This document shows, one piece after another, positions 1-64,000 of a DNA stretch of 64,000 bases. Below the pieces are notes generated by a model. It was not told the origin of the DNA. It ran no database searches and saw only the letters and a program-made list of their open reading frames with translations. The stretch spans positions 29,660,651-29,724,650 of the forward strand of contig OX387603.1 of NCBI GenBank assembly GCA_947568835.1, given 5' to 3'. Every line of letters starts with the position of its first letter. The first letter of the stretch is position 1. Source of the stretch: Protonemura montana (taxonomy: Eukaryota; Arthropoda; Insecta; Plecoptera; Nemouridae). The position numbers and the translations under genes were made by a program.

Positions 1-410
1 CCAGACGCTCCAGACACTCTGCCTTAGTAGCCAGACCCTCCAGATACTCTTTCTCGCTAGCCAGACGCTCCAGAAACTTTGCCTCGCTAGCCAGACGCCT
101 CAGACACTTTGCCTTGCTACCCAGTCGCTCCTGACACTCTGCCTCGCAAGCTGGGCTTTCCAGACACTCTGCCTCGCTAGCCAGGCACTCCAAACACTCT
201 TCCTTGCTAGCCAGTCGCTCCGGACACTGTGCCTCCGTAGTAACACGCTCCAGACCTTCTGCTTTGCTAGCTATGCGTTCCAGTCACTCTTACTTGCTGG
301 CCAGACGCTCCATTCACTCTGCCTCGCTAGCCAGACGCTCCAAACACTCTGCCTCGCAAACCGGGTGCTACAGACACTCTGCCTTGCTAGCCAGACGCTC
401 CAGACACTCT

Positions 411-1310
411 GCTCCGCTACCCAGACGCTCCAGACACTCTGCCTCTTAAGCCGGGCGCTCCAGACACTCTCCCTCGCGTGCCAGACGCTCCAGACACTCT
501 GCCTTAGTAGCCAGACCCTCCAGATACTCTTTCTCGCTAGCCAGACGCTCCAGAAACTTTGCCTCGCTAGCCAGACGCCTCAGACACTTTGCCTTGCTAC
601 CCAGTCGCTCCTGACACTCTGCCTCGCAAGCTGGGCTTTCCAGACACTCTGCGTCGCTAGCCAGGCACTCCAAACACTCTTCCTTGCTAGCCAGTCGCTC
701 CAGACACTCTTTCTCGCTAGCCAGACGCTCCAGACACTCTGCTTCGCTAGCAAAACGCTCCAGAAACTTTGCCTCGCTAGTCAGACGCCTCAGACACTTT
801 GCCTTGCCACCCAGTCGCTCCTGACAATCTGCCTCGCAAGCTGGGCTTTCCAGACACTCTGCGTCGCTAGCCAGGCACTCCAAACACTCTTCCTCGCTAG
901 CCAGACGCTCCAGACACGCTGCTTCGCAAGCCGGGCACTCCAGACTCTCTGCCTTGCTAGCCAGACGTTTCAGACACTGCCTAGCTACCAAGACGCTCCA
1001 GGCACTCTGCCATACTGGCCAGACGCCCTAGAAACTCTGCCCGCTACCCAGACGCTCGAGACACTCTTCCTCGCTAGCCAGACGCTCCAGACATTCTGCC
1101 TCGCTAGCAAGTCGCTCCAGAAACTCTGAATCGCTACACGGACGCTCTAGACACTCTTCCATGCTAGCCAGACGCACCAGACACTCTGCCAAGCTACCAA
1201 GACGCTCCAGACACGCTGCCTCGCAAGCCGGGCACTTCAGACTCTCTGCCTTGCTAGCCAGACACCCTTGACACTCTGCCTTCCTTCCCGGACGCTCCAG
1301 ACACTCTGCC
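411..1310. repeat. Old paralogue of 51,346-52,260 within the array
   Basis: The order of variant units matches 51,346 onward at an offset of about 50,935, changing to 50,965 after a one-unit (30 bp) difference. Shared rare variants include the gccttgccac unit near 800, the pair of phase deletions at 976 and 1,042, a gctcgagac variant (an XhoI-type site) near 1,052, and the ctgaatcgctacacgg unit near 1,128. The same block occurs again from about 55,660. It shows that the left part and the 51-56 kb region descend from one ancestral block. Confidence 0.75.
961..1050. repeat. Phase-shift module with paired -2 and -1 deletions
   Basis: Three units here span 87 bases instead of 90: a 28-bp unit (cagacactgcctag, two bases lost), a normal unit containing catactggcc, and a 29-bp unit (gcccgctac, one base lost). 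The same pair is at 51,940-52,030 and 55,950-56,040. At 63,430-63,530 the catactggcc unit and the 1-base loss are present, but the 2-base loss is not, so the two deletions arose separately. Confidence 0.85.
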
Positions 1311-1549
1311 TCGCAAGCTGGGCGCTCCAGACACTCTGCCTCGCAGGCCAGCGCTTCAGACACTCTGCCTAGCTACCAAGGCGCTCCAGGCACTCTGCCA
1401 TGCTAGCCAGTCGCTCCAGACATTCTGCCTCGCTAGCCAGACGCCCTAGACACTCTGACCCGCTACCCAGACGTTCCAGACACTCTGCCTCGCAAGCCGG
1501 GCGCTCCAGACACTCTGCCTCGCTAGCCAGACGCTCCAGACAATCTGCC

Positions 1550-6063: not shown

Positions 6064-6083
6064 CTAGTCGCTCCAGACACTCT

Positions 6084-6237
6084 GCTTCGCTAGCCAGTCG
6101 CTCCGGACACTCTGCCTCCGTAGTAACACGCTCCAGACCTTCTGCTTTGCTAGCTATGCGTTCCAGTCAATCTTCCTTGCTGCCCAGACGCTCCATTCAC
6201 TCTGCCTCGCTAGTTAGACGCTCCAAACACTCTGCCT
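6084..6237. repeat. 154-bp patch duplicated from 5,648-5,801
   Basis: Five units here, running from gcttcgctag through the gtagtaacac, ctatgcgttcc and gttagacgctcc variants, repeat 5,648-5,801 at an offset of 436 bases. At the corresponding place HOR-A copy 2 (about 9,605) instead has two different units (gccctagac and ccccgctac types), as do the copies near 15,950, 18,880 and 33,540. The patch is therefore specific to this copy and was probably inserted by conversion or unequal exchange. Confidence 0.8.
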
Positions 6238-8364
6238 AGCAAGCTGGGCACTCCAAACACTCTGCCTCGCTAGCTAGACGCCCCAGACACTTTGCCTTAC
6301 TACCCAGACGCTCCAGACAATCTGACTCGCAAGCCAGACTCTCCAGTCACTCTGCCATGCTGGCCAATCGCTCCAGACACCCTGCCTCGCCAGCCAGACG
6401 CCATAGACACTCTGTTCCGTTACTCAGACGCTCCAGATGCTCTGCCTTAGTAGCCAGACGCTCCAGACACTCTTCCTCGCTAGCCAGACACCTCAGACAC
6501 TCTGCCTTGCTACCCAGTCGCTCCTGACACTCTGCCTCGTAAGCTGGGCTTTCCAGACACTCTGCCTAGCTAGCCAGGCACTCCAAACACTCTTCCTTGC
6601 TAGCCAATCGCTCCGGACCCTATGCCTCCCTAGTAACACGCTCCAGACCTTCTGCTTTGCTAGCGAGTCGCTCCAGACAGTCTGCTTTGCTTGCCAGACG
6701 CCCCAGACATTCTGCCTCGCTAGCAAGACGCTCCAGAAACTCTTCTTCGCTACCCGGACGCTCTAGACACTCTTCCATGCTAGCCAGACGCTCCAGACAC
6801 TCTGCCTTGCTAGCCAGTCGCTCCAGACACTCTGCCAAGCTACCAAGACGCTCCAGACAGGCTGCCTCGCAAGCCGGGCACTTCAGACTCTCTTCCTTGC
6901 TAGCCAGACACCCTAGACACTCTGCCTTGCTTCCCGGACGCTCCAGACACTCTGGCTCGCAAGCCGGGCACTCCAGACACTCTGCCTCTCATGCCGGGCG
7001 CTCCAGACACTCTGCTTAGCAAGCAAGACGCTCCAGGCACTCTGCCATGCTAGCCAGTCGCTCCAGACACTCTGCCTCGCTAGCCAGAAGCCATAGACAC
7101 TCTGCCCCACTACCCAGACGCTCCAGACACTCTGCCTCGCTAGCCAGACGCTCCAAACACTCTGCCTCGCAAGCCGGGTGCTCCAGACACTCTGCCTTGC
7201 TAGCCAGACGCTCCAGACACTCTGCCCCGCTACCCAGACGCTCCAGACACTCTGCCTCGCAAGCCGGGTGCTCCAGACACTCTGCCTCGCGTGCCAGACG
7301 CTCCAGACACTCTGCCTTAGTAGCCAGACCCTCCAGATACTCTTTCTCGCTAGCCAGACGCTCCAGAAACTTTGCCTCGCTAGCCAGACGCCTCAGACAC
7401 TTTGCCTTGCTACCCAATCGCTCCTGACACTCTGCCTCGCAAGCTGGGCTTTCCAGACACTCTGCCTCGCTAGCCAGGCACTCCAAACACTCTTCCTTGC
7501 TAGCCAGTCGCTCCGGACACTGTGCCTCTGTAGTAACACATTCCAGACCTTCTGCTTTGCTAGCTATGCGTTCCAGTCACTCTTCCTTGCTGGCCAGACG
7601 CTCCATTCACTCTGCCTCGCTAGCCAGACGCTCCAGACACCCTGCCTAGCTACCAAGACGCTCCAGAAACTCTTCCTTGCTACCCAGACGCTCCAGGCAC
7701 TCTGCCATGCTGGCCAGTCGCTCCAGACACTCTGCCTTGCTACCCAGTCGCTCCTGACACTCTGCCTCGTAAGCTGGGCTTTCCAGACACTCTGCCTAGC
7801 TAGCCAGGCACTCCAAACACTCTTCCTTGCTAGCCAATCGCTCCGGACCCTATGCCTCCCTAGTAACACGCTCCAGACCTTCTGCTTTGCTAGCGAGTCG
7901 CTCCAGAAACTCTGCTTCGCTACCCGGACGCTCTTGACACTCTTCCATGCTAGCCAGACGCTACAGACACTCTGCCTTGCTAGCCAGTCGCTCCAGACAC
8001 TCTGCCAAGCTACCAAGACGCTCCAGACAGGCTGCCTCGCAAGCTGGGCACTTCAGACTCTCTGCCTTGCTAGCCAGACACCCTAGACACTCTGCCTTGC
8101 TTCCCGGACGCTCCAGACACTCTGGCTCGCAAGCCGGGCACTCCAGACACTCTGCCTCTCATGCCGGGCGCTCCAGACACTCTGTTTAGCAAGCAAGACG
8201 CTCCAGGCACTCTGCCATGCTAGCCAGTCGCTCCAGACACTCTGCCTCGCTAGCCAGAAGCCATAGACACTCTGCCCCACTACCCAGACGCTCCAGACAC
8301 TCTGCCTCGCTAGCCAGACGCTCCAAACACTCTGCCTCGCAAGCCGGGTGCTCCAGACACTCTG

Positions 8365-11300
8365 CCTTGCTAGCTAGTCGCTCCGGACACTCCGCCTCGC
8401 TACTAGGTCGCTTCAGACACTCTGCCTGGCAAGCCGGGCACTCCCAACACTCTGCCTCGCTAGCTTGACGCCCCAGACACTTTGCCTTGCTACCCAGACG
8501 CTCCAGGCACTCTGCCATGCTGGCCAGTCGCTCCAGACACTCTGCCTCGCTAGCCAGACAATCCAGCCACTGCCTCGCTAGCCAGAAACTCCAGACACTC
8601 TGCCACGCTAGCCAGTCGCTCCAGACACTCTGCCTAGCTACCAAGACGCTCCAGACACTCTGCCTTGCTTCCCGGACGTTCCAGACACTCTGGCTCGCAA
8701 GCCGGGCACTCCAGACACTCTGCCTCGCAGGCCGGGCGCTCCAGACACTCTGCCTCGCGTGCCAGACGCTCCAGACACTCTGCCTTAGTAACCAGACCCT
8801 CTAGATACTCTTTCTCGCTAGCCAGACGCTCCAGAAACTTTGCCTCGCTAGCCAGACGCCTCAGACACTCGGCCTTGCTACCCAGTCGCTCCTGACACTC
8901 TGCCTCGCTAGCCAGGCACTCCAAACACTCTTCCTTGCTAGCTAGTCGCTCCGGACACTGTGCCTCCGTAGTAACACGCTCCAGACCTTCTGCTTTGCTA
9001 GCTATGCGTTCCAGTCACTCTTCCTTGCTGGCCAGACGCTCCATTTACTCTGCCTCGCTAGCCAGACGCTCCAGACACTCTGCCTTGCTTCCCAGATGCT
9101 CCAGACACTCTGCCTCGCAAGCCAGACGCTCCAGACACTCTGCCTTAGTAGCCAGACGCTCCAGACACTCTGCTTCGCTAGCCAGTCGCTCCGGACACTC
9201 TGCCTCCGTAGTAACACGCTCCAGACCTTCTGCTTTGCTAGCTATGCGTTCCAGTCAATCTTTCTTGCTGCCCAGACGCTCCATTCACTCTGCCTCGCTA
9301 GTTAGACGCTCCAAACACTCTGCCTCGCAAGCCGGGTGCTCCAGACACTCTGCCTTGCTAGCCAGACGCTCCAGACACTCTGCTTCGCTAGCCAGGCGCT
9401 CCAGATATTTTGCCTCGCTAGCCAGACTCCTCAGACACTCTGCCTTGCTACCCAATCGCTCCGGACACTCTGCCTTGCTTCTCAGATACTCTAGACACTC
9501 TGCCTCGCAAGCCAGACGCTTCAGACTCTCTGCATTAGCTGCCAGACGCTCCAGACACTTTGCACTCCAGGCACTCTGCCATGCTGGCTAGTCGCTCCAG
9601 ACACTCTGCCTCGCTAGCCAGACGCCCTAGACACTCTGCCCCGCTACCCAGACGCTCCAGACACTCTGCCTAGCAAGCTGGGCACTCCAAACACTCTGCC
9701 TCGCTAGCTAGACGCCCCAGACACTTTGCCTTACTACCCAGACGCTCCAGACAATCTGACTCGCAAGCCAGACTCTCCAGTCACTCTGCCATGCTGGCCA
9801 ATCGCTCCAGACACCCTGGCTCGCCAGCCAGACGCCATAGACACTCTGTTCCGTTACTCAGACGCTCCAGATGCTCTGCCTTAGTAGCCAGACGCTCCAG
9901 ACACTCTTCCTCGCTAGCCAGACACCTCAGACACTCTGCCTTGCTACCCAGTCGCTCCTGACACTCTGCCTCGTAAGCTGGGCTTTCCAGACACTCTGCC
10001 TAGCTAGCCAGGCACTCCAAACACTCTTCCTTGCTAGCCAATCGCTCCGGACCCTATGCCTCCCTAGTAACACGCTCCAGACCTTCTGCTTTGCTAGCGA
10101 GTCGCTCCAGACACTCTGCTTTGCTTGCCAGACGCCCCAGACATTCTGACTCGCTAGCAAGACGCTCCAGAAACTCTTCTTCGCTACCCGGACGCTCTAG
10201 ACACTCTTCCATGCTAGCCAGACGCTCCAGACACTCTGCCTTGCTAGCCAGTCGCTCCAGACACTCTGCCAAGCTACCAAGACGCTCCAGACAGGCTGCC
10301 TCGCAAGCCGGGCACTTCAGACTCTCTTCCTTGCTAGCCAGACACCCTAGACACTCTGCCTTGCTTCCCGGACGCTCCAGACACTCTGGCTCGCAAGCCG
10401 GGCACTCCAGACACTCTGCCTCTCATGCCGGGCGCTCCAGACACTCTGCTTAGCAAGCAAGACGCTCCAGGCACTCTGCCATGCTAGCCAGTCGCTCCAG
10501 ACACTCTGCCTCGCTAGCCAGAAGCCATAGACACTCTGCCCCACTACCCAGACGCTCCAGACACTCTGCCTCGCTAGCCAGACGCTCCAAACACTCTGCC
10601 TCGCAAGCCGGGTGCTCCAGACACTCTGCATCGCGTGCCAGACGCTCCAGACACTCTGCCTTAGTAGCCAGACCCTCCAGATACTCTTTCTCGCTAGCCA
10701 GACGCTCCAGAAACTTTGCCTCGCTAGCCAGACGCCTCAGACACTTTGCCTTGCTACCCAGTCGCTCCTGACACTCTGCCTCGCAAGCTGGGCTTTCCAG
10801 ACACTCTGCCTCGCTAGCCAGGCACTCCAAACACTCTTCCTTGCTAGCCAGTCGCTCCAGACACTGTGCCTCTGTAGTAACACATTCCAGACCTTCTGCT
10901 TTGCTAGCTATGCGTTCCAGTCACTCTTCCTTGCTGGCCAGACGCTCCATTCACTCTGCCTCGCTAGCCAGACGCTCCAGACACCCTGCCTAGCTACCAA
11001 GACGCTCCAGAAACTCTTCCTTGCTACCCAGACGCTCCAGGCACTCTGCCATGCTGGCCAGTCGCTCCAGACACTCTGCCTTGCTACCCAGTCGCTCCTG
11101 ACACTCTGCCTCGTAAGCTGGGCTTTCCAGACACTCTGCCTAGCTAGCCAGGCACTCCAAACACTCTTCCTTGCTAGCCAATCGCTCCGGACCCTATGCC
11201 TCCCTAGTAACACGCTCCAGACCTTCTGCTTTGCTAGCGAGTCGCTCCAGAAACTCTGCTTCGCTACCCGGACGCTCTAGACACTCTTCCATGCTAGCCA

Positions 11301-11708: not shown

Positions 11709-12725
11709 CCTTGCTAGCTAGTCGCTCCGGACACTCCGCCTCGCTACAAGGTCGCTTCAGACACTCTGCCTGGCAAGCCGGGCACTCCCAACACTCTGCC
11801 TCGCTAGCTTGACGCCCCAGACACTTTGCCTTGCTACCCAGACGCTCCAGGCACTCTGCCATGCTGGCCAGTCGCTCCAGACACTCTGCCTCGCTAGCCA
11901 GACAATCCAGCCACTGCCTCGCTAGCCAGAAACTCCAGACACTCTGCCACGCTAGCCAGTCGCTCCAGACACCCGCCTAGCAACCAAGACGCTCCAGACA
12001 CTCTGCCTTGCTTCCCGGACGTTCCAGACACTCTGGCTCGCAAGCCGGGCACTCCAGACACTCTGCCTCGCAGGCCGGGCGCTCCAGACACTCTGCCTCG
12101 CGTGCCAGACGCTCCAGACACTCTGCCTTAGTAGCCAGACCCTCTAGATACTCTTTCTCGCTAGCCAGACGCTCCAGAAACTTTGCCTCGCTAGCCAGAC
12201 GCCTCAGACACTCGGCCTTGCTACCCAGTCGCTCCTGACACTCTGCCTCGCTAGCCAGGCACTCCAAACACTCTTCCTTGCTAGCTAGTCGCTCCGGACA
12301 CTGTGCCTCCGTAGTAACACGCTCCAGACCTTCTGCTTTGCTAGCTATGCGTTCCAGTCACTCTTCCTTGCTGGCCAGACGCTCCATTTACTCTGCCTCG
12401 CTAGCCAGACGCTCCAGACACTCTGCCTTGCTTCCCAGATGCTCCAGACACTCTGCCTCGCAAGCCAGACGCTCCAGACACTCTGCCTTAGTAGCCAGAC
12501 GCTCCAGACACTCTGCTTCGCTAGCCAGTCGCTCCGGACACTCTGCCTCCGTAGTAACACGCTCCAGACCTTCTGCTTTGCTAGCTATGCGTTCCAGTCA
12601 ATCTTCCTTGCTGCCCAGACGCTCCATTCACTCTGCCTCGCTAGTTAGACGCTCCAAACACTCTGCCTCGCAAGCCGGGTGCTCCAGACACTCTGCCTTG
12701 CTAGCCAGACGCTCCAGACACTCTG
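11709..12725. repeat. HOR-A copy 3, partial (about 1.0 kb)
   Basis: It follows copy 2 at an offset of 3,344, changing to 3,343 after a private 1-base deletion near 11,970 (acacccgcctagcaacc). Identity to copy 2 stops near 12,725, where a ccccgctaccc unit replaces gcttcgctag. From 12,278 onward it can also be aligned with 29,300 onward. Confidence 0.8.
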
Positions 12726-14450
12726 CCCCGCTACCCAGACGCTCCAGACACTCTGCCTCGCAAGCCGGGCGCTCCAGACACTCTGCCTTGCGTGCCAGAC
12801 GCTCCAGACACTCTGCCTTAGTAGCCAGACCCTCCAGATACTCGTTCTCGCAAGCCAGACGCTCCAGAAACTCTGCCTTGCTAGCCAGGCACTCTAAACA
12901 CTCTTCCTTGCTAGCCAGTCGCTCCGGACACTGTGCCTCCGTAGTAACACGCTCCAGACCTTCTGCTTTGCTAGCTTTGCGTTCCAGTCACTCTTTCTTG
13001 CTGGCCAGACGCTCCATTCACTCTGCCTCGCTAGCCAGACGCTCCAGACACCCTGCCTAGCTACCATGACGCTCCAGAAACTATGCCTTGCTACCCAGAC
13101 GCTCCAGGCACTCTGCCATGCTGGCCAGTCGCTCCAGACACTCTGCCTCGCTAGCCAGTTGCTCCAGACGCTATGCATAGCTACCAAGACCCTTCAGACA
13201 CGCTGCCTCTTAAGCCAGGTACTCCAGACTCTCTGCCTCGCTAGCCAGACGCCCCAGACACTCTGCCTTGCTTCCCAGATGCTCCAGACACTCTGCCTCG
13301 CAAGCCAGACGCACCAGACACTCTGCCTTAGTAGCCAGACGCTCCAGACACTCTGCTTCGCTAGCCAGTCGCTCCGGACACTCTGCCTCCGTAGAAACAC
13401 GCTCCAGACCTTCTGCTTTGCTAGCTATGCGTTCCAGTCAATCTTCCTTGCTGGCCAGACGCTCCATTCACTCTGCCTCGCTAGCCAGACGCTCCAAACA
13501 CTCTGCCTCGCAAGCCGGGTGCTCCAGACACTCTGCCTTTCTAGCCAGACGCTCCAGACACTCTGCCCCGCTACCCAGAAGCTCCAGACACTCTGCCTCG
13601 CGAACCGGGCGCTCCAGACACTCTGCCTTGCTAGCCAGACGCTCCAGACACTCTGCCCCGCTACCCAGACGCTCCAGACACTCTGCCTCGCAAGCCGGGC
13701 GCTCCAGACACTCTGCCTCGCTAGCCAGACGCTCCAGACACTCTTTCTCGCTAGCCAGACGCTCCAGACACTCTGCTTCGCTAGCCAGACGCTCCAGAAA
13801 CTCTGTCTCGCTAGCCAGACGCCTCAGACACTCTGCCTTGCTACCCAGTCGCTCTTGACACTCTGCCTCGCAAGCTGGGCTTTCCAGACACTCTGCCTCG
13901 CTAGCAAGGCACTCCAAACACTTTTCCTTGCTAGCTAGTCGCTCCGGACACTCCGCCTCGCTACTAGGTCGCTTCAGACACTCTGCCTGGCAAGCCGGGC
14001 ACTCCCAACACTCTGCCTCGCTAGCTTGACGCCCCAGACACTTTGCCTTGCTACCCAGACGCTCCAGGCACTCTGCCATGCTGGCCAGTCGCTCCAGACA
14101 CTCTGCCTCGCTAGCCAGACAATCCAGCCACTGCCTCGCTAGCCAGAAACTCCAGACACTCTGCCACGCTAGCCAGTCGCTCCAGACACTCTGCCTAGCT
14201 ACCAAGACGCTCCAGACACTCTGCCTTGCTTCCCGGACGTTCCAGACACTCTGGCTCGCAAGCCGGGCACTCCAGACACTCTGCCTCGCAGGCCGGGCGC
14301 TCCAGACACTCTGCCTCGCGTGCCAGACGCTCCAGACACTCTGCCTTAGTAGCCAGACCCTCCAGATACTCTTTCTCGCGTGCCAGACGCTCCAGACACT
14401 CTGCCTTAGTAGCCAGACCCTCCAGATACTCTTTCTCGCTAGCCAGGCAC
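12278..14450. repeat. Connector: long-range paralogue of 29,300-31,470
   Basis: Unit order matches 29.3-31.5 kb at a constant offset of 17,022 (for example 13,268/30,290, 14,048/31,070 and 14,226/31,248). Both include the rare ctaccatgacgctcc unit, the gtagaaacac variant (13,393; 30,415) and marker M1 (14,128; 31,150). The segment bridges HOR-A and the 2,926-bp domain. Confidence 0.8.
14317..14436. repeat. 60-bp (2-unit) tandem duplication
   Basis: The two-unit block starting cgcgtgccagacgc at 14,317 and including the gaccctccagatactc unit is repeated immediately from 14,377. Related positions at 5,230, 8,756, 12,100 and 24,382 have it once, so this is a local two-unit gain. Confidence 0.85.
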
Positions 14451-14680
14451 TCCAAACACTCTTCCTTGCTAGCTAGTCGCTCCGGACACTGTGCCTCCGT
14501 AGTAACACGCTCCAGACCTTCTGCTTTGCTAGCTATGCGTTCCAGTCACTCTTCCTTGCTGGCCAGACGCTCCATTTACTCTGCCTCGCTAGCCAGACGC
14601 TCCAGACACTCTGCCTTGCTTCCCAGATGCTCCAGACACTCTGCCTCGCAAGCCAGACGCTCCAGACACTCTGCCTTAGT

Positions 14681-49552: not shown

Positions 49553-51632
49553 TAGCAAGCTAGGCACTCCAAACACTCTGCCTCGCTAGCTCGACGCCCC
49601 AGACACTTTGCCTTACTACCCAGACGCTCCAGACAATCTGTCTTGCAAGCCAGACGCTCCAGTCACTCTGCCATGCTGGCCAATCGCTCCAGACACTCTG
49701 CCTCGCTAGCCATTCGCTCCAGACACTCTGCCTAGCTACCAAGACGCACCAGACACGCTGCTTCGCAACTCGGGCACTCCAGACTCTCTGCTTTGCTAGC
49801 CAGACGCTTCAGACACTCTGCCTAGCTACCAAGACGCTCCAAGCACTTTGCCATGCTGGCCAGTCGCTCCAGACACCCTGCCTCGCCAGCCAGACGCCCT
49901 AGACACTCTGTTCCGTTACCCAGACGCTGCAGACACTCTGCCTTAGTAGCCAGACGCTCCAGACACTCTGCTTCGCTAGCCAGACGCTCCAGAAACTTTG
50001 CCTCGCTAGCCAGACGCCCCAGACACTCTGCCTTGCTTCCCAGATGCTCCAGACACTCTGCCTCGCAAGCCAGACGCTCCAGATACTGCTTCGCTAGCCA
50101 GACGCTCCAGAAACTCTGCCTCGCTAGCCAGATCCCTCAGACACTCCGCCCTTCTACCCAGACGCTCCAGACACTCTGCCTCGCAACCGGGCGCTTCAGA
50201 CACTCTGCTTAGCAAGCAAGACGCTCCAGGCACTCTGCCAGGCTGGCCAGTCGCTCCAGACACTCTGCCTTAGTAGCTAGACGCTCCAGGCACTCTGCCA
50301 CGCTAGCTATGCGTTCCAGTCACCTTTCCTTGCTGGCCAGACGCTCCATACACTCTGCCTCGCTAGCCAGACGCTCCAAACACTCTGCCTAGCTACCAAG
50401 ACGCACCAGACACGCTGCTTCGCAAGCCGGGCACTCCAGACACTCTGCCTCGCTAGCCAGACGTTTCAGACACTCTTCCTAGCTACCAAACGCTCCAGAC
50501 ACTCTGCTTCGCTAGCCAGAAGTTCCAAAAACTTTACCTCGCCAGCTAGAAGCCTCAGACACTCTGCCTTGCTACCCAGTCGCTCTTGACACTCTGCCTC
50601 GCAAGCTGGGCTTTCCAGACACTCTGCCTCGCTAGCAAGGCACTCCAAACACTTTTCCTTGCTAGCTAGTCGCTCCGGACACTCCGCCTCGCTACTAGGT
50701 CGCTTCAGACACTCTGCCTCGCTAGCCAGACGCCCTAGACACTCTGCCCCGCTACCCAGACGCTCCAGACACTCTGCCTAACAAGCTGGGCACTCCAAAC
50801 ACTCTGCCTCGTTAGCTAGACGCCCCAGACACTTTGCCTTACTACCCAGACGCTCCAGACAATCTGACTCGCAAGCCAGACTCTCCAGTCACTCTGCCAT
50901 GCTGGCCAATCGCTCCAGACACCCTGCCTCGCCAGCCAGACGCCCTAGACACTCTGTTCCGTTACCCAGACGCTCCAGACGCTCTGCCTTAGTAGCCAGA
51001 CGCTCCAGACACTCTTCCTCGCTAGCCAGACGCCTCAGACACTCTGCCTTGCTACCCAGTCGCTCCTGACACTCTGCTTCGTAAGCTGGGCTTTCCAGAC
51101 ACTCTGCCTAGCTAGCCAGGCACTCCAAACACTCTTTCTTGCTAGCCAATCGCTCAGGACCCTATGCCTCCCTAGTAACACGCTCCAGACCTTCTGCTTT
51201 GCTAGCGAGTCGCTCCAGACACTCTGCTTTGCTTGCCAGACGCTCCAGACATTCTGCCTCGCTAGCAAGACGCTCCAGAAACTCTGCTTCGCTACCCGGA
51301 CGCTCTAGACACTCTTCCATGCTAGCCAGACGCTCCAGACACTCTGCTCCGCTACCCAGACGCTCCAGACACTCTGCCTCGCAAGCCGGGCGCTCCAGAC
51401 ACTCTGCCTCGCGTGCCAGACGCTCCAGACACTCTGCCTTAGTAGCCAGACACTCCAGATACTCTTTCTCGCTACCCAGACGCTCCAGAAACTTTGCCTC
51501 GCTAGCCAGACGCCTCAGACACTTTGCCTTGCTACCCAGTCGCTCCTGACACTCTGCCTCGCAAGCTGGGCTTTCCAGACACTCTGCGTCGCTAGCCAGG
51601 CACTCCAAACACTCTTCCTTGCTAGCCAGTCG
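49553..51632. repeat. Mosaic connector before the 4,011-bp duplication
   Basis: 50,040-50,700 repeats the 41,250-41,930 type block (28-bp unit near 50,088, then a private cgcccttctac variant near 50,149). 50,700-51,340 resembles 9,600-10,240. From 51,346 it resembles 411 onward. Two private changes are ctaacaagctg near 50,789 and gttagctag near 50,812. Nothing but repeat units is present. Confidence 0.75.
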
Positions 51633-54600
51633 CTCTAGACACTCTTTCTCGCTAGCCAGACGCTCCAGACACTCTGCTTCGCTAGCCAGACGCTCCAGAA
51701 ACTTTGCCTCGCTAGTCAGACGCCTCAGACACTTTGCCTTGCCACCCAGTCGCTCCTGACAATCTGCCTCGCAAGCTGGGCTTTTCAGACACTCTGCGTC
51801 GCTAGCCAGGCACTCCAAACACTCTTCCTCGCTAGCCAGACGCTCCAGACACTCTGCCTAGCTACCAAGACGCACCAGACACGCTGCTTCGCAAGCCGGG
51901 CACTCCAGACTCTCTGCCTCGCTAGCCAGACGTTTCAGACACTGCCTAGCTACCAAGACGCTCCAGGCACTCTGCCATACTGGCCAGACGCCCTAGAAAC
52001 TCTGCCCGCTACCCAGACGCTCGAGACACTCTCCCTCGCTAGCCAGACGCTCCAGACATTCTGCCTCGCTAGCAAGTCGCTCCAGAAACTCTGAATCGCT
52101 ACACGGACGCTCTTGACACTCTTCCATGCTAGCCAGACGCACCAGACACTCTGCCAAGCTACCAAGACGCTCCAGACACGCTGCCTCGCAAGCCGGGCAC
52201 TTCAGACTCTCTGCCTTGCTAGCCAGACACCCTAGACACTCTGCCTTGCTTCCCGGACGCTCCAGACACTCTGGCTCGCAAGCCGGGCACTCCAGACACT
52301 CTGCGTCTCATGCCGGGCGCTCCAGACACTCTGCTTAGCAAGCAAGACGCTCCAGGCACTCTGCCATGCTAGCCAGTCGCTCCAGACACTCTGCCTCGCT
52401 AGCCAGAAGCCAAAGACACTCTGCCCCACTACCCAGACGCTCCAGACACTCTGCCTCGCTAGCCAGACGCTCCAAACACTCTGCCTCGCAAGCCGGGTGC
52501 TCCAGACACTCTGCCTTGCTAGCCAGACGCTCCAGACACTCTGCCCCGCTACCCAGACGCTCCAGACACTCTGCCTCGCAAGCTTGGCGCTCCAGACACT
52601 CTGCCTCGCGTGCCAGACGCTCCAGACACTCTGCCTTAGTAGCCAGACCCTCCAGATACTCTTTCTCGCTAGCCAGACGCTCCAGAAACTTTGCCTCGCT
52701 AGCAAGACGCCTCAGACACTTTGCCTTGCTACCCAGTCGCTCCTGACACTCTGCCTCGCAAGCTGGGCTTTCCAGACACTCTGCCTCGCTAGCCAGGCAC
52801 TCCAAACACTCTTCCTTGCTAGCCAGTCGCTCCGGACACTGTGCCTCCGTAGTAACACGCTCCAGACCTTCTGCTTTGCTAGCTATGCGTTCCAGTCACT
52901 CTTCCTTGCTGGCCAGACGCTCCATTCACTCTGCCTCGCTAGCCAGACGCTCCAGACACCCTGCCTAGCTACCAAGACGCTCCAGAAACTCTGCCTTGCT
53001 ACCCAGATGCTCCAGGCACTCTGCCATGCTGGCCAGTCGCTCCAGACACTCTGCCTCGCTAGCCAGTTGCTCCAGACGCTCTGCATAGCTACCAAGACGC
53101 TTCAGACACACTGCCTCTTAAGCCAGGCACTCCAGACTCTCTGCCTCGCTAGCCTGACGCCCCAGACACTCTGCCTTGCTTCCCAGATGCTCCAGACACT
53201 CTGCCTCGCAAGCCAGACGCTCCAGACACTCTGCCTTAGTAGCCAGATGCTCCAGACACTCTTTCTCGCTAGCCAGACGCTCCAGACACTCTGCTTCGCT
53301 AGCCAGACGCTCCAGAAACTTTGCCTCGCTAGCCAGACGCCCCAGACACTCTGCCTTGCTTCCCAGATGCTCCAGACACTCTGCCTCGCAAGCCAGACGC
53401 TCCAGATACTGCTTCGCTAGCCAGACGCTCCAGAAACTCTGCCTCGCTAGCCAGATCCCTCAGACACTCTGCCTCGCTACCCAGACGCTCCAGACACTCT
53501 GCCTCGCAACCGGGCGCTTCAGACACTCTGCTTAGCAAGCAAGACGCTCCAGGCACTCTGCCAGGCTGGCCAGTCGCTCCAGACACTCTGCCTTAGTAGC
53601 TAGACGCTCCAGGCACTCTGCCACGCTAGCTATGCGTTCCAGTCACCTTTCCTTGCTGGCCAGACGCTCCATACACTCTGCCTCGCTAGCAAGACGCTCC
53701 AAACACTCTGCCTAGCTACCAAGACGCACCAGACACGCTGCTTCGCAAGCCGGGCACTCCAGACACTCTGCCTCGCTAGCCAGACGTTTCAGACACTCTT
53801 CCTAGCTACCAAACGCTCCAGACACTCTGCTTCGCTAGCCAGAAGTTCCAAAAACTTTACCTCGCCAGCTAGAAGCCTCAGACACTCTGCCTTGCTACCC
53901 AGTCGCTCTTGACACTCTGCCTCGCAAGCTGGGCTTTCCAGACACTCTGCCTCGCTAGCAAGGCACTCCAAACACTTTTCCTTGCTAGCTTGTCGCTCCG
54001 GACACTCCGCCTCGCTACTAGGTCGCTTCAGACACTCTGCCTGGCAAGCCGGGCACTCCCAATACTCTGCCTCGCTAGCTAGACGCCCCAGACACTTTGC
54101 CTTGCTACCCAGACGCTCCAGGCACTCTGCCATGCTGGCCAGTCGCTCCAGACACTCTGCCTCGCTAGCCAGACAATCCAGCCACTGCCTCGCTAGCCAT
54201 AAACTCCAGACACTCTGCCACGCTAGCCAGTCGCTCCAGACACTCTGCCTAGCTACCAAGACGATCCAGACACTCTGCCTTGCTTCCCGGACGTTCCAGA
54301 CACGCTGCCTCTTAAGCCAGGCACTCCAGACTCTCTGCCTCGCTAGCCTGACGCCCCAGACACTCTGCCTTGCTTCCCAGATGCTCCAGACACTCTGCCT
54401 CGCAAGCTGGGCTTTCCAGACACTCTGCCTTGCTAGCCAGGCACTCCAAACACTCTTCCTTGCTAGCCAATCGCTCCGGACCCTATGCCTCCCTAGTAAC
54501 ACGCTCCAGACCTTCTGCTTTGCTAGCGAGTCGCTCCAGACACTCTGCTTTGCTTGCCAGACGCTCCAGACATTCTGCCTCGCTAGCAAGACGCTCCAGA

Positions 54601-55643
54601 AACTCTGCTTCGCTACCCGGACGCTCTAGACACTCTTCCATGCTAGCCAGACGCTCCAGACACTCTGCCTTGCTAGCCAGTCGCTCCAGACACTCTGCCA
54701 AGCTACCAAGACGCTCCAGACAGGCTGCCTCGCAAGCCGGGCACTTCAGACTCTCTGCCTTGCTAGCCAGACACCCTAGACACTCTGCCTTGCTTCCCGG
54801 ACGCTCCAGACACTCTGGCTCGCAAGCCGGGCACTCCAGACACTCTGCCTCTCATGCCGGGCGCTCCAGACACTCTGCTTAGCAAGCAAGACGCTCCAGG
54901 CACTCTGCCATGCTAGCCAGTCGCTCCAGACACTCTGCCTCGCTAGCCAGAAGCCATAGACACTCTGCCCCACTACCCAGACGCTCCAGACACTCTGCCT
55001 CGCTAGCCAGACGCTCCAAACACTCTGCCTCGCAAGCCGGGTGCTCCAGACACTCTGCCTTGCTAGCCAGACGCTCCAGACACTCTGCCTCGCAAGCCGG
55101 GTGCTCCAGACACTCTTCCGCGCGTGCCAGACGCTCCAGACACTCTGCCTTAGTAGCCAGACCCTCCAGATACTCTTTCTCGCTAGCCAGACGCTCCAGA
55201 AACTTTGCCTCGCTAGCAAGACGCCTCAGGCACTTTGCCTTGCTACCCAGTCGCTCCTGACACTCTGCCTCGCAAGCTGGGCTTTCCAGACACTCTGCCT
55301 CGCTAGCCAGGCACTCCAAACAATCTTCCTTGCTAGCCAGTCGCTCCGGACACTGTCCCTCCGTAGTAACACGCTCCAGACCTTCTGCTTTGCTAGCTAT
55401 GCGTTCCAGTCACTCTTCCTTGCTGGCCAGACGCTCCATTCACTCTGCCTCGCTAGCCAGACGCTCCAGACACCCTGCCTAGCTACCAAGACGCTCCAGA
55501 AACTCTGCCTTGCTACCCAGACGCTCCAGGCACTCTGCCATGCTGGCCAGTCGCTCCAGACACTCTGCCTCGCTAGCCAGTTGCTCCAGACGCTCTGCAT
55601 AGCTACCAAGACGCTTCAAACACGCTGCCTCTTAAGCCAGGCA
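51633..55643. repeat. 4,011-bp tandem duplication, copy 1
   Basis: Starts at ctctagacactctttctcg (51,633), which recurs at 55,644; the base before it differs (g versus a). Length 4,011 = 134x30-9. Differences from copy 2 are few, roughly ten noticed: agcttggcg near 52,583, cagatgctccagg near 53,006, gacgatcc near 54,263, cttccgcgcg near 55,117 and cttcaaacacg near 55,616. Both copies carry the M1 module. Confidence 0.94.
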
Positions 55644-58600
55644 CTCTAGACACTCTTTCTCGCTAGCCAGACGCTCCAGACACTCTGCTTCGCTAGCCAG
55701 ACGCTCCAGAAACTTTGCCTCGCTAGTCAGACGCCTCAGACACTTTGCCTTGCCACTCAGTCGCTCCTGACAATCTGCCTCGCAAGCTGGGCTTTTCAGA
55801 CACTCTGCGTCGCTAGCCAGGCACTCCAAACACTCTTCCTCGCTAGCCAGACGCTCCAGACACTCTGCCTAGCTACCAAGACGCACCAGACACGCTGCTT
55901 CGCAAGCCGGGCACTCCAGACTCTCTGCCTCGCTAGCCAGACGTTTCAGACACTGCCTAGCTACCAGGACGCTCCAGGCACTCTGCCATACTGGCCAGAC
56001 GCCCTAGAAACTCTGCCCGCTACCCAGACGCTCGAGACACTCTCCCTCGCTAGCCAGACGCTCCAGACATTCTGCCTCGCTAGCAAGTCGCTCCAGAAAC
56101 TCTGAATCGCTACACGGACGCTCTTGACACTCTTCCATGCTAGCCAGACGCACCAGACACTCTGCCAAGCTACCAAGACGCTCCAGACACGCTGCCTCGC
56201 AAGCCGGGCACTTCAGACTCTCTGCCTTGCTAGCCAGACACCCTAGACACTCTGCCTTGCTTCCCGGACGCTCCAGACACTCTGGCTCGCAAGCCGGGCA
56301 CTCCAGACACTCTGCGTCTCATGCCGGGCGCTCCAGACACTCTGCTTAGCAAGCAAGACGCTCCAGGCACTCTGCCATGCTAGCCAGTCGCTCCAGACAC
56401 TCTGCCTCGCTAGCCAGAAGCCAAAGACACTCTGCCCCACTACCCAGACGCTCCAGACACTCTGCCTCGCTAGCCAGACGCTCCAAACACTCTGCCTCGC
56501 AAGCCGGGTGCTCCAGACACTCTGCCTTGCTAGCCAGACGCTCCAGACACTCTGCCCCGCTACCCAGACGCTCCAGACACTCTGCCTCGCAAGCCGGGCG
56601 CTCCAGACACTCTGCCTCGCGTGCCAGACGCTCCAGACACTCTGCCTTAGTAGCCAGACCCTCCAGATACTCTTTCTCGCTAGCCAGACGCTCCAGAAAC
56701 TTTGCCTCGCTAGCAAGACGCCTCAGACACTTTGCCTTGCTACCCAGTCGCTCCTGACACTCTGCCTCGCAAGCTGGGCTTTCCAGACACTCTGCCTCGC
56801 TAGCCAGGCACTCCAAACACTCTTCCTTGCTAGCCAGTCGCTCCGGACACTGTGCCTCCGTAGTAACACGCTCCAGACCTTCTGCTTTGCTAGCTATGCG
56901 TTCCAGTCACTCTTCCTTGCTGGCCAGACGCTCCATTCACTCTGCCTCGCTAGCCAGACGCTCCAGACACCCTGCCTAGCTACCAAGACGCTCCAGAAAC
57001 TCTGCCTTGCTACCCAGACGCTCCAGGCACTCTGCCATGCTGGCCAGTCGCTCCAGACACTCTGCCTCGCTAGCCAGTTGCTCCAGACGCTCTGCATAGC
57101 TACCAAGACGCTTCAGACACACTGACTCTTAAGCCAGGCACTCCAGACTCTCTGCCTCGCTAGCCTGACGCCCCAGACACTCTGCCTTGCTTCCCAGATG
57201 CTCCAGACACTCTGCCTCGCAAGCCAGACGCTCCAGACACTCTGCCTTAGTAGCCAGATGCTCCAGACACTCTTTCTCGCTAGCCAGACGCTCCAGACAC
57301 TCTGCTTCGCTAGCCAGACGCTCCAGAAACTTTGCCTCGCTAGCCAGACGCCCCAGACACTCTGCCTTGCTTCCCAGATGCTCCAGACACTCTGCCTCGC
57401 AAGCCAGACGCTCCAGATACTGCTTCGCTAGCCAGACGCTCCAGAAACTCTGCCTCGCTAGCCAGATCCCTCAGACACTCTGCCTCGCTACCCAGACGCT
57501 CCAGACACTCTGCCTCGCAACCGGGCGCTTCAGACACTCTGCTTAGCAAGCAAGACGCTCCAGGCACTCTGCCAGGCTGGCCAGTCGCTCCAGACACTCT
57601 GCCTTAGTAGCTAGACGCTCCAGGCACTCTGCCACGCTAGCTATGCGTTCCAGTCACCTTTCCTTGCTGGCCAGACGCTCCATACACTCTGCCTCGCTAG
57701 CAAGACGCTCCAAACACTCTGCCTAGCTACCAAGACGCACCAGACACGCTGCTTCGCAAGCCGGGCACTCCAGACACTCTGCCTCGCTAGCCAGACGTTT
57801 CAGACACTCTTCCTAGCTACCAAACGCTCCAGACACTCTGCTTCGCTAGCCAGAAGTTCCAAAAACTTTACCTCGCCAGCTAGAAGCCTCAGACACTCTG
57901 CCTTGCTACCCAGTCGCTCTTGACACTCTGCCTCGCAAGCTGGGCTTTCCAGACACTCTGCCTCGCTAGCAAGGCACTCCAAACACTTTTCCTTGCTAGC
58001 TTGTCGCTCCGGACACTCCGCCTCGCTACTAGGTCGCTTCAGACACTCTGCCTGGCAAGCCGGGCACTCCCAATACTCTGCCTCGCTAGCTAGACGCCCC
58101 AGACACTTTGCCTTGCTACCCAGACGCTCCAGGCACTCTGCCATGCTGGCCAGTCGCTCCAGACACTCTGCCTCGCTAGCCAGACAATCCAGCCACTGCC
58201 TCGCTAGCCATAAACTCCAGACACTCTGCCACGCTAGCCAGTCGCTCCAGACACTCTGCCTAGCTACCAAGACGCTCCAGACACTCTGCCTTGCTTCCCG
58301 GACGTTCCAGACACGCTGCCTCTTAAGCCAGGCACTCCAGACTCTCTGCCTCGCTAGCCTGACGCCCCAGACACTCTGCCTTGCTTCCCAGATGCTCCAG
58401 ACACTCTGCCTCGCAAGCTGGGCTTTCCAGACACTCTGCCTTGCTAGCCAGGCACTCCAAACACTCTTCCTTGCTAGCCAATCGCTCCGGACCCTATGCC
58501 TCCCTAGTAACACGCTCCAGACCTTCTGCTTTGCTAGCGAGTCGCTCCAGACACTCTGCTTTGCTTGCCAGACGCTCCAGACATTCTGCCTCGCTAGCAA

Positions 58601-59654
58601 GACGCTCCAGAAACTCTGCTTCGCTACCCGGACGCTCTAGACACTCTTCCATGCTAGCCAGACGCTCCAGACACTCTGCCTTGCTAGCCAGTCGCTCCAG
58701 ACACTCTGCCAAGCTACCAAGACGCTCCAGACAGGCTGCCTCGCAAGCCGGGCACTTCAGACTCTCTGCCTTGCTAGCCAGACACCCTAGACACTCTGCC
58801 TTGCTTCCCGGACGCTCCAGACACTCTGGCTCGCAAGCCGGGCACTCCAGACACTCTGCCTCTCATGCCGGGCGCTCCAGACACTCTGCTTAGCAAGCAA
58901 GACGCTCCAGGCACTCTGCCATGCTAGCCAGTCGCTCCAGACACTCTGCCTCGCTAGCCAGAAGCCATAGACACTCTGCCCCACTACCCAGACGCTCCAG
59001 ACACTCTGCCTCGCTAGCCAGACGCTCCAAACACTCTGCCTCGCAAGCCGGGTGCTCCAGACACTCTGCCTTGCTAGCCAGACGCTCCAGACACTCTGCC
59101 TCGCAAGCCGGGTGCTCCAGACACTCTGCCGCGCGTGCCAGACGCTCCAGACACTCTGCCTTAGTAGCCAGACCCTCCAGATACTCTTTCTCGCTAGCCA
59201 GACGCTCCAGAAACTTTGCCTCGCTAGCAAGACGCCTCAGGCACTTTGCCTTGCTACCCAGTCGCTCCTGACACTCTGCCTCGCAAGCTGGGCTTTCCAG
59301 ACACTCTGCCTCGCTAGCCAGGCACTCCAAACAATCTTCCTTGCTAGCCAGTCGCTCCGGACACTGTCCCTCCGTAGTAACACGCTCCAGACCTTCTGCT
59401 TTGCTAGCTATGCGTTCCAGTCACTCTTCCTTGCTGGCCAGACGCTCCATTCACTCTGCCTCGCTAGCCAGACGCTCCAGACACCCTGCCTAGCTACCAA
59501 GACGCTCCAGAAACTCTGCCTTGCTACCCAGACGCTCCAGGCACTCTGCCATGCTGGCCAGTCGCTCCAGACACTCTGCCTCGCTAGCCAGTTGCTCCAG
59601 ACGCTCTGCATAGCTACCAAGACGCTTCAGACACGCTGCCTCTTAAGCCAGGCA
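55644..59654. repeat. 4,011-bp tandem duplication, copy 2
   Basis: The junction at 55,643/55,644 fuses ttaagccaggca (the sequence that ends each copy, also at 59,643-59,654) to ctctagacactc (the sequence that starts copy 1). This is the breakpoint expected from one unequal exchange within a 30-bp unit. Private changes are ccaggacgctcc near 55,967, gccactcagtcg near 55,752 and cactgactctt near 57,121. Confidence 0.94.
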
Positions 59655-60595
59655 CTCCAGACTCTCTGCCTCGCTAGCCTGACGCCCCAGACACTCTGCC
59701 TTGCTTCCCAGATGCTCCAGACACTCTGCCTCGCAAGCTGGGCTTTCCAGACACTCTGCCTAGCTAGCCAGGCACTCCAAACACTCTTCCTTGCTAGCCA
59801 ATCGCTCCGGACCCTATGCCTCCCTAGTAACACGCTCCAGACCTTCTGCTTTGCTAGCGAGTTTGCTCCAGACACTCTGCTATGCTTGCCAGACGCTCCA
59901 GACATTCTGCCTCGCTAGCAAGACGCTCCAGAAACTCTGCTTCGCTACCCGGACGCTCTAGACACTCTTCCATGCTAGCCAGACGCTCCAGACACTCTGC
60001 CAAGCTACCAAGACGCTCCAGACAGGCTGCCTCGCAAGCCGGGCACTTCAGACTCTCTGCCTTGCTAGCCAGACACCCTAGACACTCTGCCTTGCTTCCC
60101 GGACGCTCCAGACACTCTGGCTCGCAAGCCGGGCACTCCAGACACTCTGCGTCTCATGCCGGGAGCTCCAGACACTCTGCTTAGCAAGCAAGACGCTCCA
60201 GGCACTCTGCCATGCTAGCCAGTCGCTCCAGACACTCTGCCTCGCTAGCCAGAAGCCAAAGACACTCTGCCCCACTACCCAGACGCTCCAGACACTCTGC
60301 CTCGCTAGCCAGACGCTCCAAACACTCTGCCTCGCAAGCCGGGTGCTCCAGACACTCTGCCTTGCTAGCCAGACGCTCCAGACACTCTGCCCCGCTACCC
60401 AGACGCTCCAGACACTCTGCCTCGCAAGCCGGGCGCTCCAGACACTCTGCCTCGCGTGCCAGACGCTCCAGACACTCTGCCTTAGTAGCCAGACCCTCCA
60501 GATACTCTTTCTCGCTAGCCAGACGCTCCAGAAACTTTGCCTCGCTAGCAAGACGCCTCAGACACTTTGCCTTGCTACCCAGTCGCTCCAGACAC
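59655..60595. repeat. Segment after the 4,011-bp duplication; end of the 59,045-60,595 paralogue
   Basis: Continues in step with 44,950-45,890 (offset 14,705), including the 31-bp unit at about 59,857. The match ends near 60,595, where gctccagacactcttcc follows instead of gctcctgacactctgcc. That point marks the border between sequence shared with the interior and the diverged right end. Confidence 0.82.
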
Positions 60596-63500
60596 TCTTC
60601 CTCGCTAGCCAGACGCTCCAGACACTCTGCTTCGCTAGCCAGACGCCTCAGACACTCTGCCTTAATACCCAGTCGCTCCTGAAACTCTGTCTGGCAAGCT
60701 GGGCTTTCCAGACACTCTGCCTCGCTAGCCAGGCACTCCAAACACTTTTCCTTGCTAGCCAGTCGCACCGGACACTCTGCCTAGCTACCAGGACGCTCCA
60801 GACACTCTGCCTCCCAAGCCGGGTGCTCCAGACACTCTGCCACGCTAGCCAGGCGTTCCAGTCACTCTTCTCGCTGGCCAGACGCTACATACACTCTCCG
60901 TTAATAGCAAGACGCTTCAGACACTCTCCCTCGGTACCAAGACGCAACACGCTGCCTGGCAAGCCGGGCACTCCAAACACTCTGTCTCGCTAGCCAGACG
61001 CCCCAGACACTTTGCCTTGCTACCCAGACGCTCCAGACAATCTGCCTCGCAAGTGAGACGCTCCAGTCACTCTGCCATGCTAACCATTCGCTCCAGACAC
61101 TCTGTCCCGCTACCCAGACTCTCCAGACACTCTGCCTCGCAAGCCGGGCGCTCCAGACACTCTGCCTTGCTAGCCTGTCGCTCCGGACACTCTGCCTCCG
61201 TACTAACACGCTCCAGACCTTCTGCTTTGCTAGCTTTGAGTTCCAGGCACTCTTCCTAGCTACCAAGACGCTCCAGGCACTCTGCCATGCTGGCCAGACG
61301 CCCTAGACACTCTGTCCCGCTACCCAGACGCTCCAGACACTCTTCCTCGCTAGCCAGACTCTCCAGACACTCTGCTTCGCTAGCCAGACGCTCCAGAAAC
61401 TTTGCCTCGCTAGCCAGACGCTTCAGACACTCTTCCTAGCTACCAAGACGCTCCAGGCACTTTGCCATGCTGGCCAGTCGCTCCAGACACCCTGCCTCGC
61501 CAGTTAGACGCCCTAGACACTCTGTTCCGATACCCAGACGCTCCAGACACTCTGCCTTAGTAGCCAGACGCTCCATACACTCTTCCTCGCTAGCCAGACG
61601 CTCCAGACACTCTGCTTCGCTAGCCAGACGCTCCAGAAACTTTTCCTGACTAGCCAGACGCCTCTGACTCTCTGCCTTGCTACCCAGTCGCTCCTGACAC
61701 TCTGCCTCGTAAGCTGGGCTTTCCAGACAATCTGCCTCGCTAGCCAGGCACCCCAAACACTCTTCCTTGCTAGCCAGTCGCTCCGGACACTATGCCTCCG
61801 AAGTAACTCGCTCCAGATCTTCTGCTTTGCTAGCGAGTCGCTAAAGACACTCTGCCTCGCTTGCCAGACGCTCCAGAAACTCTGCCTTGCTACCCAGACG
61901 CTCCAGGCACTCTGCCATGCTGGCCAGTCGCTCCAGACACTCTGCCTCGCTAGCCAGTCGCTTCAGACACTATGCATAGCTACCAAGACGCTTTAGACAC
62001 GCTGCCTCTTAAGCCAGGCACTCCGGACTCTCTGCCACGCTAGCCGGGCGCTCCAGACACTGTGCTTAGCTAGCAAGACGCTCCAGGAACTCTGCCATGC
62101 TGGCCAGTCGCTCCAGACACTCTGCCCGGCTACCCAGACGCTCCAGACAATCTGCCTCGCAAGCCGGGCGCTCCAGACACTCTGCCTCGCTAGCCAGACG
62201 CTCCAGACACCCTGACTCCCTAGCCAGAAACTCCAGACACTCTGCCACGCTAGCCAGTCGCTCCAGACACTCTGCCTAGCTACCAAGACGTTCCAGGCAC
62301 TCTGCCATGCTAGTTAGTCGCTCCAGACACTCTGCCTCGCTAGCCAGAAGCCCTAGATACTCTGCCCCGCTACCCAGACGCTCCAGACACTCTGCCTCGC
62401 AAGCCGGGCGCACCAGACACTCTACCTCGCTAGCCAGACGCTCCAGAAACTTTGCCTCGCTAGCAGGACGCCTCAGACACTCTGCCTTGTTACCCAGTCC
62501 CTCCTGACACTCTGCCTCGCTAGCCAGGCACTCCAAACACTGTTCCTTGCTAGCCAGTCCCTCCGGACACTCTGCCTCCGTAGTAACAAGTTCCAGACCT
62601 TTTGCTTTGCTAGCGAGTCGCTCCAGACACTCTGCTTTGCTAGCTATGCGTTCCAGTCACTCTGCCTTGTTACCCAGTCGCTCCGGACACTCTGCCTCCG
62701 AAGTTACACGCTCCAGACCTTCTGCTTTGCTAGCTATGCGTTCCAGTCACTCTTCCTTGCTAGCCAGACGCTCCATACACTCTGCCTCGCTAGCCAGACG
62801 CTCCAGACACTCTGCCTGCCAAGCCGGGTTCTGCAAAAACTCTGCCTCTATAGCCAGACGCTCCAGACACTCTTCCCCGCTACCCAGACTCTCCAGACAC
62901 TCTGCCTCGCAAGCCGGGCGCTCCAGACACTCTTCCTTGCTGGCCAGACGCTCCAGACACTCTTTCTCGCTAGCCAGACGCTGCAGACACTATGCTTCGC
63001 TAGCCAGACGCTCCAGAAACTTTACCTTGCTAGCCAGTCGCTCCGGACACTCTGCCTCCATAGTAACACGCTCCAGAACTTCTGCTTTGCTAGCTTTGAG
63101 TTCCAGACACTCTGCCCCGCTACCCAGACTCTCCAGACACTCTGCCTCGCAAGCCGGGCCCTCCAGACACTCTGTCCCGCTACCCAGACGCTCCAGACAC
63201 TCTTCCTCGCTAGCCAGACGCTCCAGACACTCTGCTTCGCTAGCCAGTCGCTACAGACACTCTGGCTAGCTACCAAAACGCACCGGACACGCTGCTTCGG
63301 AAATCGGGCACTCCAGACTCTCTGCTTTGCTAGCCAGTCGCTCCGGACACTCTGCCTAGCTACCAAGACGCACCAGACACGCTGCTTCGCAAGCCGGGCA
63401 CTCCAGACTTTCTGCCTCGCTAGCCAGACGTTTCAGACACTCTGCCTAGCTACCAAGACGCTCCAGGCACTCTGCCATACTGGCCAGACGCCCTAGACAC

Positions 63501-64000
63501 TCTGCCCGCTACCCAGACGCTCGAGACACTCTTCCTCTCTAGCCAGACGCTCCAGACACTCTGCTTCGCTAGCCAGACGCTCCAGAAACTTTGCCTCGCT
63601 TGCCAGACGCCTCAGACACTCTGCTTTGCTACCCAGTCGCTCCAGGCTTTCTGCCTCGCTAGCCAGGCACTCCAAACACTCTGCCTCGCTAGCAAGACGC
63701 CCCAGACACTTTTCCTTACTTCCCAGACGCTCCAGACAATCTGACTAGCAAGCCAGACGCTCCAGTCACTCTGCCATGCTGGCCAATCGCTCCAGACACT
63801 CTGCTTTGCTAGCCAGACGCCCTAGACAATCTGTTCCGCTACCCAGACGCTCCAGACACTCTTTTTCGCTAGCCAGACGCTCCAGACACTCTGCTTCGCT
63901 AGCCAGACGCTCCAGAAACTTTGCCTCGCTAGCCAGACGCTTCAGACACTCTTCCTAGCTACCAAGACGCTCCAGGCACTTTGCCATGCTGGCCAGTCGC
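60596..64000. repeat. Right segment: diverged, weakly homogenised units
   Basis: Still 30-bp units, but with many singletons: ctccgttaatagc near 60,897, gacgcaacacg near 60,952 (about 4 bases lost), cttctcgctggcc near 60,868 (1 base lost), gcctgccaagccgggttctgc near 62,815 and gcctctatag near 62,846. I found no large exact duplication inside it. A catactggcc module with only its 1-base deletion lies at 63,430-63,530. The window ends inside a unit, so the array goes on. Confidence 0.85.

Follow-up and report, generated by a model that had tools for sequence, protein, structure and literature searches.

What is a 64-kb run of one 30-bp repeat doing near the end of a stonefly contig, and what part of the chromosome might it mark? 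We analysed a window of 64,000 bp from Protonemura montana, located at positions 29,660,651-29,724,650 of contig OX387603.1 (hereafter C2; 29,805,332 bp) in an assembly of 258.48 Mb and 34 contigs. Tandem satellite DNA with no open gene makes up the window, which lies inside a block of the same repeat that is terminal on C2. We put at roughly 60% the probability that this array represents putative (peri)centromeric heterochromatin of one-armed (acrocentric or telocentric) chromosomes.

A satellite array filling the window

The array, with unit CCAGACGCTCCAGACACTCTGCCTCGCTAG on the strand as written, runs in forward orientation from position 1 to 64000 of the window, comprises about 2,133 units and extends past both window edges. 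Tandem Repeats Finder (TRF) covered 1-64000 in a single row with a period of 30, 2,138.3 copies, 75% match and 0% indel; the eight remaining rows are short and report longer periods within the same array. Identity at lag 30 was 0.744, as compared with at most 0.284 at any lag from 2 to 199 in 20 base shuffles, and alignment to the consensus gave 2,133 unit starts at 85.7% identity. An original prediction, made from the letters alone, had described some 2,130 units of 30 bp filling the 64 kb, and the tandem-repeat search that it proposed bears this out. Within the window it was also right about orientation and continuity: a core 23-mer occurs 207 times forward and never in reverse, and a search for an insert in the window revealed none, with consensus identity falling no lower than 0.70 in 60-bp windows and 0.79 in 300-bp windows. 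Its description of the repeat as pure goes too far: the units have diverged, with 468 distinct sequences among 2,132 units, and higher-order duplications are present. Unit length is 30 bp in 2,040 of the 2,132 units and differs in the other 92.

These properties are those of satellite DNA: a long head-to-tail array of one unit, local homogenisation of the kind attributed to concerted evolution, and, judging by the stops in all frames, an apparently non-coding character. Minisatellites (variable number tandem repeats, VNTRs) are usually dispersed and have units of roughly 10-100 bp in arrays no longer than some tens of kb; the 30-bp unit falls within that range, but both the 64-kb window and the C2 block of about 0.65 Mb are too long, as had been anticipated. 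Nor is this a telomere repeat, a short G-rich unit forming the chromosome end, as the array unit is 30 bp and other motifs are found at the ends.

The original prediction did not recognise the family, and no named family emerged from the literature or from exact matching of the core 23-mer to prokaryote and viral contigs. Literature searches found no paper on the 30-bp repeat: two 19-base stretches of the unit had no match in the literature searched, and of four unit stretches searched, one of 13 bases occurred in an unrelated paper and the others were unmatched. The core 23-mer had 0 matches in the prokaryote and viral contig collections (exact matching only), and bacterial or viral contamination was rejected on this count. 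An Rfam search of ten sequence sources gave no match in the window, the sole match being a 5S rRNA in locus L013. The sequence thus appears new, being without a match in the literature, the prokaryote and viral collections or Rfam, while its kind is well known. We also rejected a single-strand structure, since one 300-base stretch folds worse than 199 of 200 shuffles. A promoter scan at the array edge returned 4 sites against 2.2 expected, using a bacterial consensus that is unsuited to an animal.

Terminal blocks and zones across the assembly

Positioning on the chromosome-scale assembly, a check that had been suggested at the outset, placed the window 80.7 kb from the end of C2 (29.81 Mb). 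The C2 block begins near C2:29,156,740, and every C2 sample from there to 29.785 Mb is array. Non-array DNA is found at C2:29.792 Mb and from 29.797 to about 29.802 Mb, after which the array resumes to the contig end; the block is therefore terminal, and is interrupted at least once by transposon DNA. The island at C2:29.797 Mb (locus L018:3-1595) carries a 531-residue frame, cut by the locus edge, that matches HTH_psq and DDE_1; a 653-residue frame of the C2 island matches Exo_endo_phos_2 above the cut-off and RVT_1 just under it. The single orientation and absence of inserts thus stop short of the block as a whole, which holds inserts and in which the array flips near C2:29,204,665, outside the window, and is forward again at 29.230 Mb.

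Likeness to the window drops with distance on the inner side of the block. The share of units identical to some window unit is 0.74 in the adjoining DNA, 0.69 at C2:29.50 Mb, 0.44 at 29.30 Mb, 0.45 at 29.20 Mb and 0.05 at the inner edge, with 0.30 at the contig end. The longest exact match to the window, compared between samples of differing length, declines inward from 498 bp in the neighbouring 10 kb to 258 at 29.50 Mb, 141 at 29.30 Mb, 107 at 29.20 Mb and 50 at the inner edge; on the outer side it reaches only 87 at C2:29.77 Mb and 82 at the contig end.

Genome-wide, the core 23-mer has 8,528 forward and 851 reverse occurrences. If its density were everywhere that of the window (207 per 64 kb), the satellite would total about 2.9 Mb, or some 1% of the assembly, and less if contig C6 is a second haplotype. 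On C5, array was found in samples at 19.432, 19.80, 20.00, 20.15, 20.30 and 20.60 Mb, and was absent from six samples between 19.00 and 19.42 Mb and from those at 20.45, 20.75, 20.90 and 20.93 Mb; the sample at 20.85 Mb shows weak periodicity (identity 0.44 at lag 30) and lacks unit words. Array is also present on C6 at 0.05, 0.50 and 1.05 Mb and on C9 at 0.05 Mb, with the first 400 bases of both contigs free of it, and in the first 400 bases of C8, though not at 0.20 or 0.50 Mb there. None of four C7 samples and neither of two C10 samples contained it, while the last 100 bases of C13 are array. Searches with core and dimer words listed no place on C1 among their first 100 matches in contig order, and C3 and C4 were likewise absent among the first 100 dimer matches, which extend to C5; with lists of this length, further contigs may also carry the satellite.

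Variant words reveal zones within these blocks. A near-consensus 53-mer has 129 matches, of which the first 100 listed comprise 44 on C2 and 56 at C5:19.43-19.76 Mb. A second variant word has 185, the first 100 listed falling at C5:20.02-20.21 Mb (53), near C5:20.73 Mb (2) and at C6:0.19-0.37 Mb (45), and a third has 583, the first 100 listed all lying within C5:20.25-20.43 Mb. On C5, 40% of the units sampled at 19.43 Mb (n = 100) have an identical counterpart in the window, against 2% of those at 20.30 Mb (n = 99) and 0% of those in four small samples spread over 19.80-20.60 Mb (n = 36). Elsewhere the proportion is 1% at C6:0.50 Mb (n = 99), 17% for two small samples of C6 taken together (n = 18), 3% for C9 (n = 99), 8% at the C8 start (n = 12) and 0 of 2 units for C13. 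With the unit set of the C5 interior (n = 135), C6 shares 56% and C9 46%. The outer C5 sample has a lag-30 identity of 0.73, and the samples from inner C5, C6 and C9 reach 0.80-0.81. Together, unit sharing and lag-30 identity indicate that the outer C5 zone is of C2 type and less homogeneous, whereas the inner C5 zone, with variants of its own, is the more homogeneous of the two. C6 follows the same order, with C2-like array at 0.05 Mb (89% match), the second variant at 0.19-0.37 Mb and the inner type at 0.50 Mb, and the first listed spacing of the second variant word on C6, 1,798 bp, is the same as on C5. It is possible that C6 represents the alternative haplotype of this block.

A putative (peri)centromeric role and its rivals

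A long heterochromatic-type block had been among the settings first proposed, and this fits, with the site now narrowed to terminal blocks on two contigs, C2 and C5, and to the final 100 bases of C13. The suggestion of a B or sex chromosome fared less well: nothing points there for the window, and C2 is the second longest of the 34 contigs. The terminal position on C2, C5 and C13, with a telomere-type repeat at the opposite, left end of C2 (locus L010:2501-4265) and likewise of C13 (L032), favours (peri)centromeric heterochromatin of one-armed chromosomes. We also count in its favour the transposon-type frames that C2 and C5 carry within the array or next to it, the satellites of 27, 36, 91 and 148 bp that adjoin the C2 block, a 5S rRNA gene about 5 kb from that block, and the C5 zonation. 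The C5 frame, in the last 4 kb of that contig (locus L042:3-3374), is open over 1,123 residues, carries Helitron and PIF1 domains and is cut off by the edge of the locus.

Several points weigh against this assignment. The C2 and C13 contigs terminate inside the array, the last 4 kb of C5 are not array, and the first 400 bases at the opposite end of C5 contain no telomere repeat. Contigs other than C2 were sparsely sampled, and the C13 evidence consists of 100 bases, 81 of them shared with C5, which makes a scaffolding error possible. A search of both window strands for the CENP-B box (up to one mismatch) gave 0 matches. The CENP-B box is frequent in some mammals and is not required for a centromeric satellite.

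It is possible, although we doubt it, that the blocks are instead subtelomeric or terminal-knob heterochromatin lying just inside the unassembled right telomeres of C2, C5 and C13 and unrelated to the centromere. Long terminal satellite blocks are common in insects; these blocks are terminal, and the explanation survives because C2 and C13 end within the array, leaving the sequence beyond it unseen. On the two flanks that we read, however, the neighbour of the telomere repeat (C1 right and C2 left) is a different, shared repeat and not the 30-bp satellite, and the terminal 100 bases of both C4 and C15 (L087, L092) consist of this same non-array subtelomeric repeat, at 97-100% identity.

We consider it improbable that the satellite is real while its block length, displaced copies and joins on C2, C5 and C13 are products of assembly, with C6 a second C5 haplotype. 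The round scaffold lengths of C6 (1,103,000), C7 (925,000), C8 (890,000) and C10 (108,000) suggest manual cutting, the zone order and 1,798-bp spacing recur on C6, and the shared 81 bases of C13 match C5:20.15 Mb. Joins, however, cannot create an array whose units have diverged and which encloses an island of non-array DNA, and a fold-back read is unlikely at the orientation switch at C2:29.2047 Mb, as the best inverted match across it is only 91% identical.

That the array is, or lies within, a repeat-rich protein-coding gene, with 30 as a multiple of 3 giving a 10-residue repeat, is extremely improbable. In favour, one reverse frame of the consensus is open, and three of the six cyclic frames have more synonymous changes than a base-matched expectation (+1, 2,934 against 2,344; -0, 2,460 against 1,958; -2, 2,818 against 2,609; raw observed and expected counts, without a significance test). 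The other three, however, have fewer. Each of the six window frames is closed by 517-827 stops with a longest open stretch of 530 codons, which refutes a long gene, though a short exon is conceivable, and unit lengths of 28, 29 and 31 bp put successive units out of frame, so that we rejected a coding origin.

Returning to the (peri)centromeric assignment, a more specific arrangement is conceivable but unlikely, namely a layered centromere of the 30-bp unit in which a young, homogeneous inner zone would be active and older, shared zones would flank it. Candidates would be C5:20.25-20.43 Mb with its C6 counterpart for the active zone, and C5:19.43-19.76 Mb with the C2 window for the older ones. 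If true, this would repeat the layered growth of primate type with a unit about one fifth of nucleosome length.

The surroundings of the blocks and the other chromosome ends yielded further observations. Both the Helitron helicase at the C5 end and the HTH_psq/DDE_1 transposase on C2 are long open frames in terminal DNA, and on that basis the two elements have perhaps been recently active. The 5S rRNA gene near the C2 block, at C2:29.1513 Mb, is the Rfam match in L013. The 91-bp satellite, which occurs near the block and at the right end of C14 (L091), resembles part of that gene (satellite and gene together occupy L011:3671-4222, L012:1-1764 and L013:3315-3435), and L091 aligns to the 5S rRNA gene stretch at 90% over 78 bases; the satellite is likely derived from that gene. 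(TTTGG)n is found at four ends, the left ends of C2 and C13 as above and the right ends of C1 (L020:5752-8000) and C11 (L088), and (TTAGG)n at two, C12 right (L089) and C16 left (L035). A seven-unit TTTGG-type word has 1,747 matches genome-wide and a TTAGG-type word 11,123, the first 100 listed of the latter being interstitial on C1. TTTGG has reportedly been claimed, in the title of a paper, for Lachnaia leaf beetles. Two telomere-type motifs in one assembly would mean either that the motif switched recently or that the contigs are of mixed origin, and the pair may matter more than the satellite family. The subtelomeric repeat lies beside (TTTGG)n at L010:4477-6135 on C2 and L020:4276-5600 on C1. 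The left end of C1 (L009:1-6202) starts within a distinct satellite of 98-bp units (63 copies, 99% match), whereas the left ends of C2 (L010:1-2500), C12 (L031) and C15 (L034) read as N runs, that of C2 being located outside the telomere repeat. Finally, 10 kb of contig C34 are mitochondrial DNA, with a tRNA and gene order that resembles the hexapod/pancrustacean ground pattern.

Proposed block copying and comparison with known satellites

Inside the window, 50-mers present at least twice cover 94.5% of the sequence. Neighbouring units are about 74% alike, whereas multi-kb duplicated blocks are 96-99% identical, a contrast that we read as recent segmental amplification. Duplicated runs, chosen by a threshold of 97% identity in 600-bp windows and all in forward orientation, include three tandem duplications: one at 14623-23515 with a spacing of 2,926 bp (99.0% identical), whose first copies span 14623-20589 and hence imply about three copies (TRF rows at 15829, 18755 and 21681); one at 35937-40108 with a spacing of 1,320 bp (98.5% identical; first copies 35937-38788); and one at 51574-59742 with a spacing of 4,011 bp (99.0% identical; first copies 51574-55731). 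Two further segments have displaced copies downstream, 6175-9145 at a distance of 15,627 bp (98.4% identical) and 11958-14447 at 17,022 bp (98.0% identical). A forward seven-unit segment of 211 bp, which starts one base before the window and occupies its positions 1-210, has at least 40 copies at 99-100% identity across C2:29.508-29.717 Mb, a lower bound in that 40 of 2,325 candidates were scored; all 89 returned matches are on C2, and other contigs may hold copies as well. Four of its copies follow in succession at 6,819-bp spacing (seen three times, C2:29.543-29.564 Mb).

We propose that unequal exchange and segmental amplification would repeatedly copy blocks of units (1.3, 2.9, 4.0 and 6.8 kb) within the array. 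Such copying would keep neighbouring stretches similar, leave older units toward the edge and give inner zones their own variants, with some exchange between C2 and C5 apparently visible in the outer zone. The array DNA itself would act as a platform for silent chromatin and perhaps for the kinetochore, with no encoded product involved. The array offers a test case for how a very short unit builds higher-order, zoned arrays, and marks a place in the assembly at which to search for the centromere.

Higher-order structure and concerted evolution are well documented for satellite arrays (PMC8122249), and the usual unit classes given there are of nucleosome length or 5-10 bp, with intermediate lengths known; a 30-bp unit lies between the usual classes, but the family is on this account unsurprising. 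Set against human alpha satellite as treated there, the likeness is one of organisation: units that have themselves diverged (some 70% alike in alpha satellite, about 74% in the window) sit within much more alike higher-order blocks, and both have chromosome-linked variants and megabase-scale arrays. The differences are a unit of about 171 bp against 30 bp, another sequence, one regular higher-order repeat against several irregular block lengths, and a window without a CENP-B box, the centromeric role here being putative (PMC8122249). Insect parallels are the 72-bp satellite of Palorus subdepressus and the repeats of Chrysolina, with intermediate or higher-order units, which the same account gives as pericentric, species-specific arthropod satellites in long arrays, as would apply here; unit length and sequence differ, and position is cytological there and assembly-inferred here (PMC8122249). 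The 60- and 79-bp satellites of Mus caroli differ again in unit length and sequence, and the 79-bp unit has a variant of the CENP-B box where the window has none, but in that source they are short-to-medium units at the ends of one-armed (telocentric) chromosomes, the very setting suggested for the 30-bp array of P. montana (PMC8122249).

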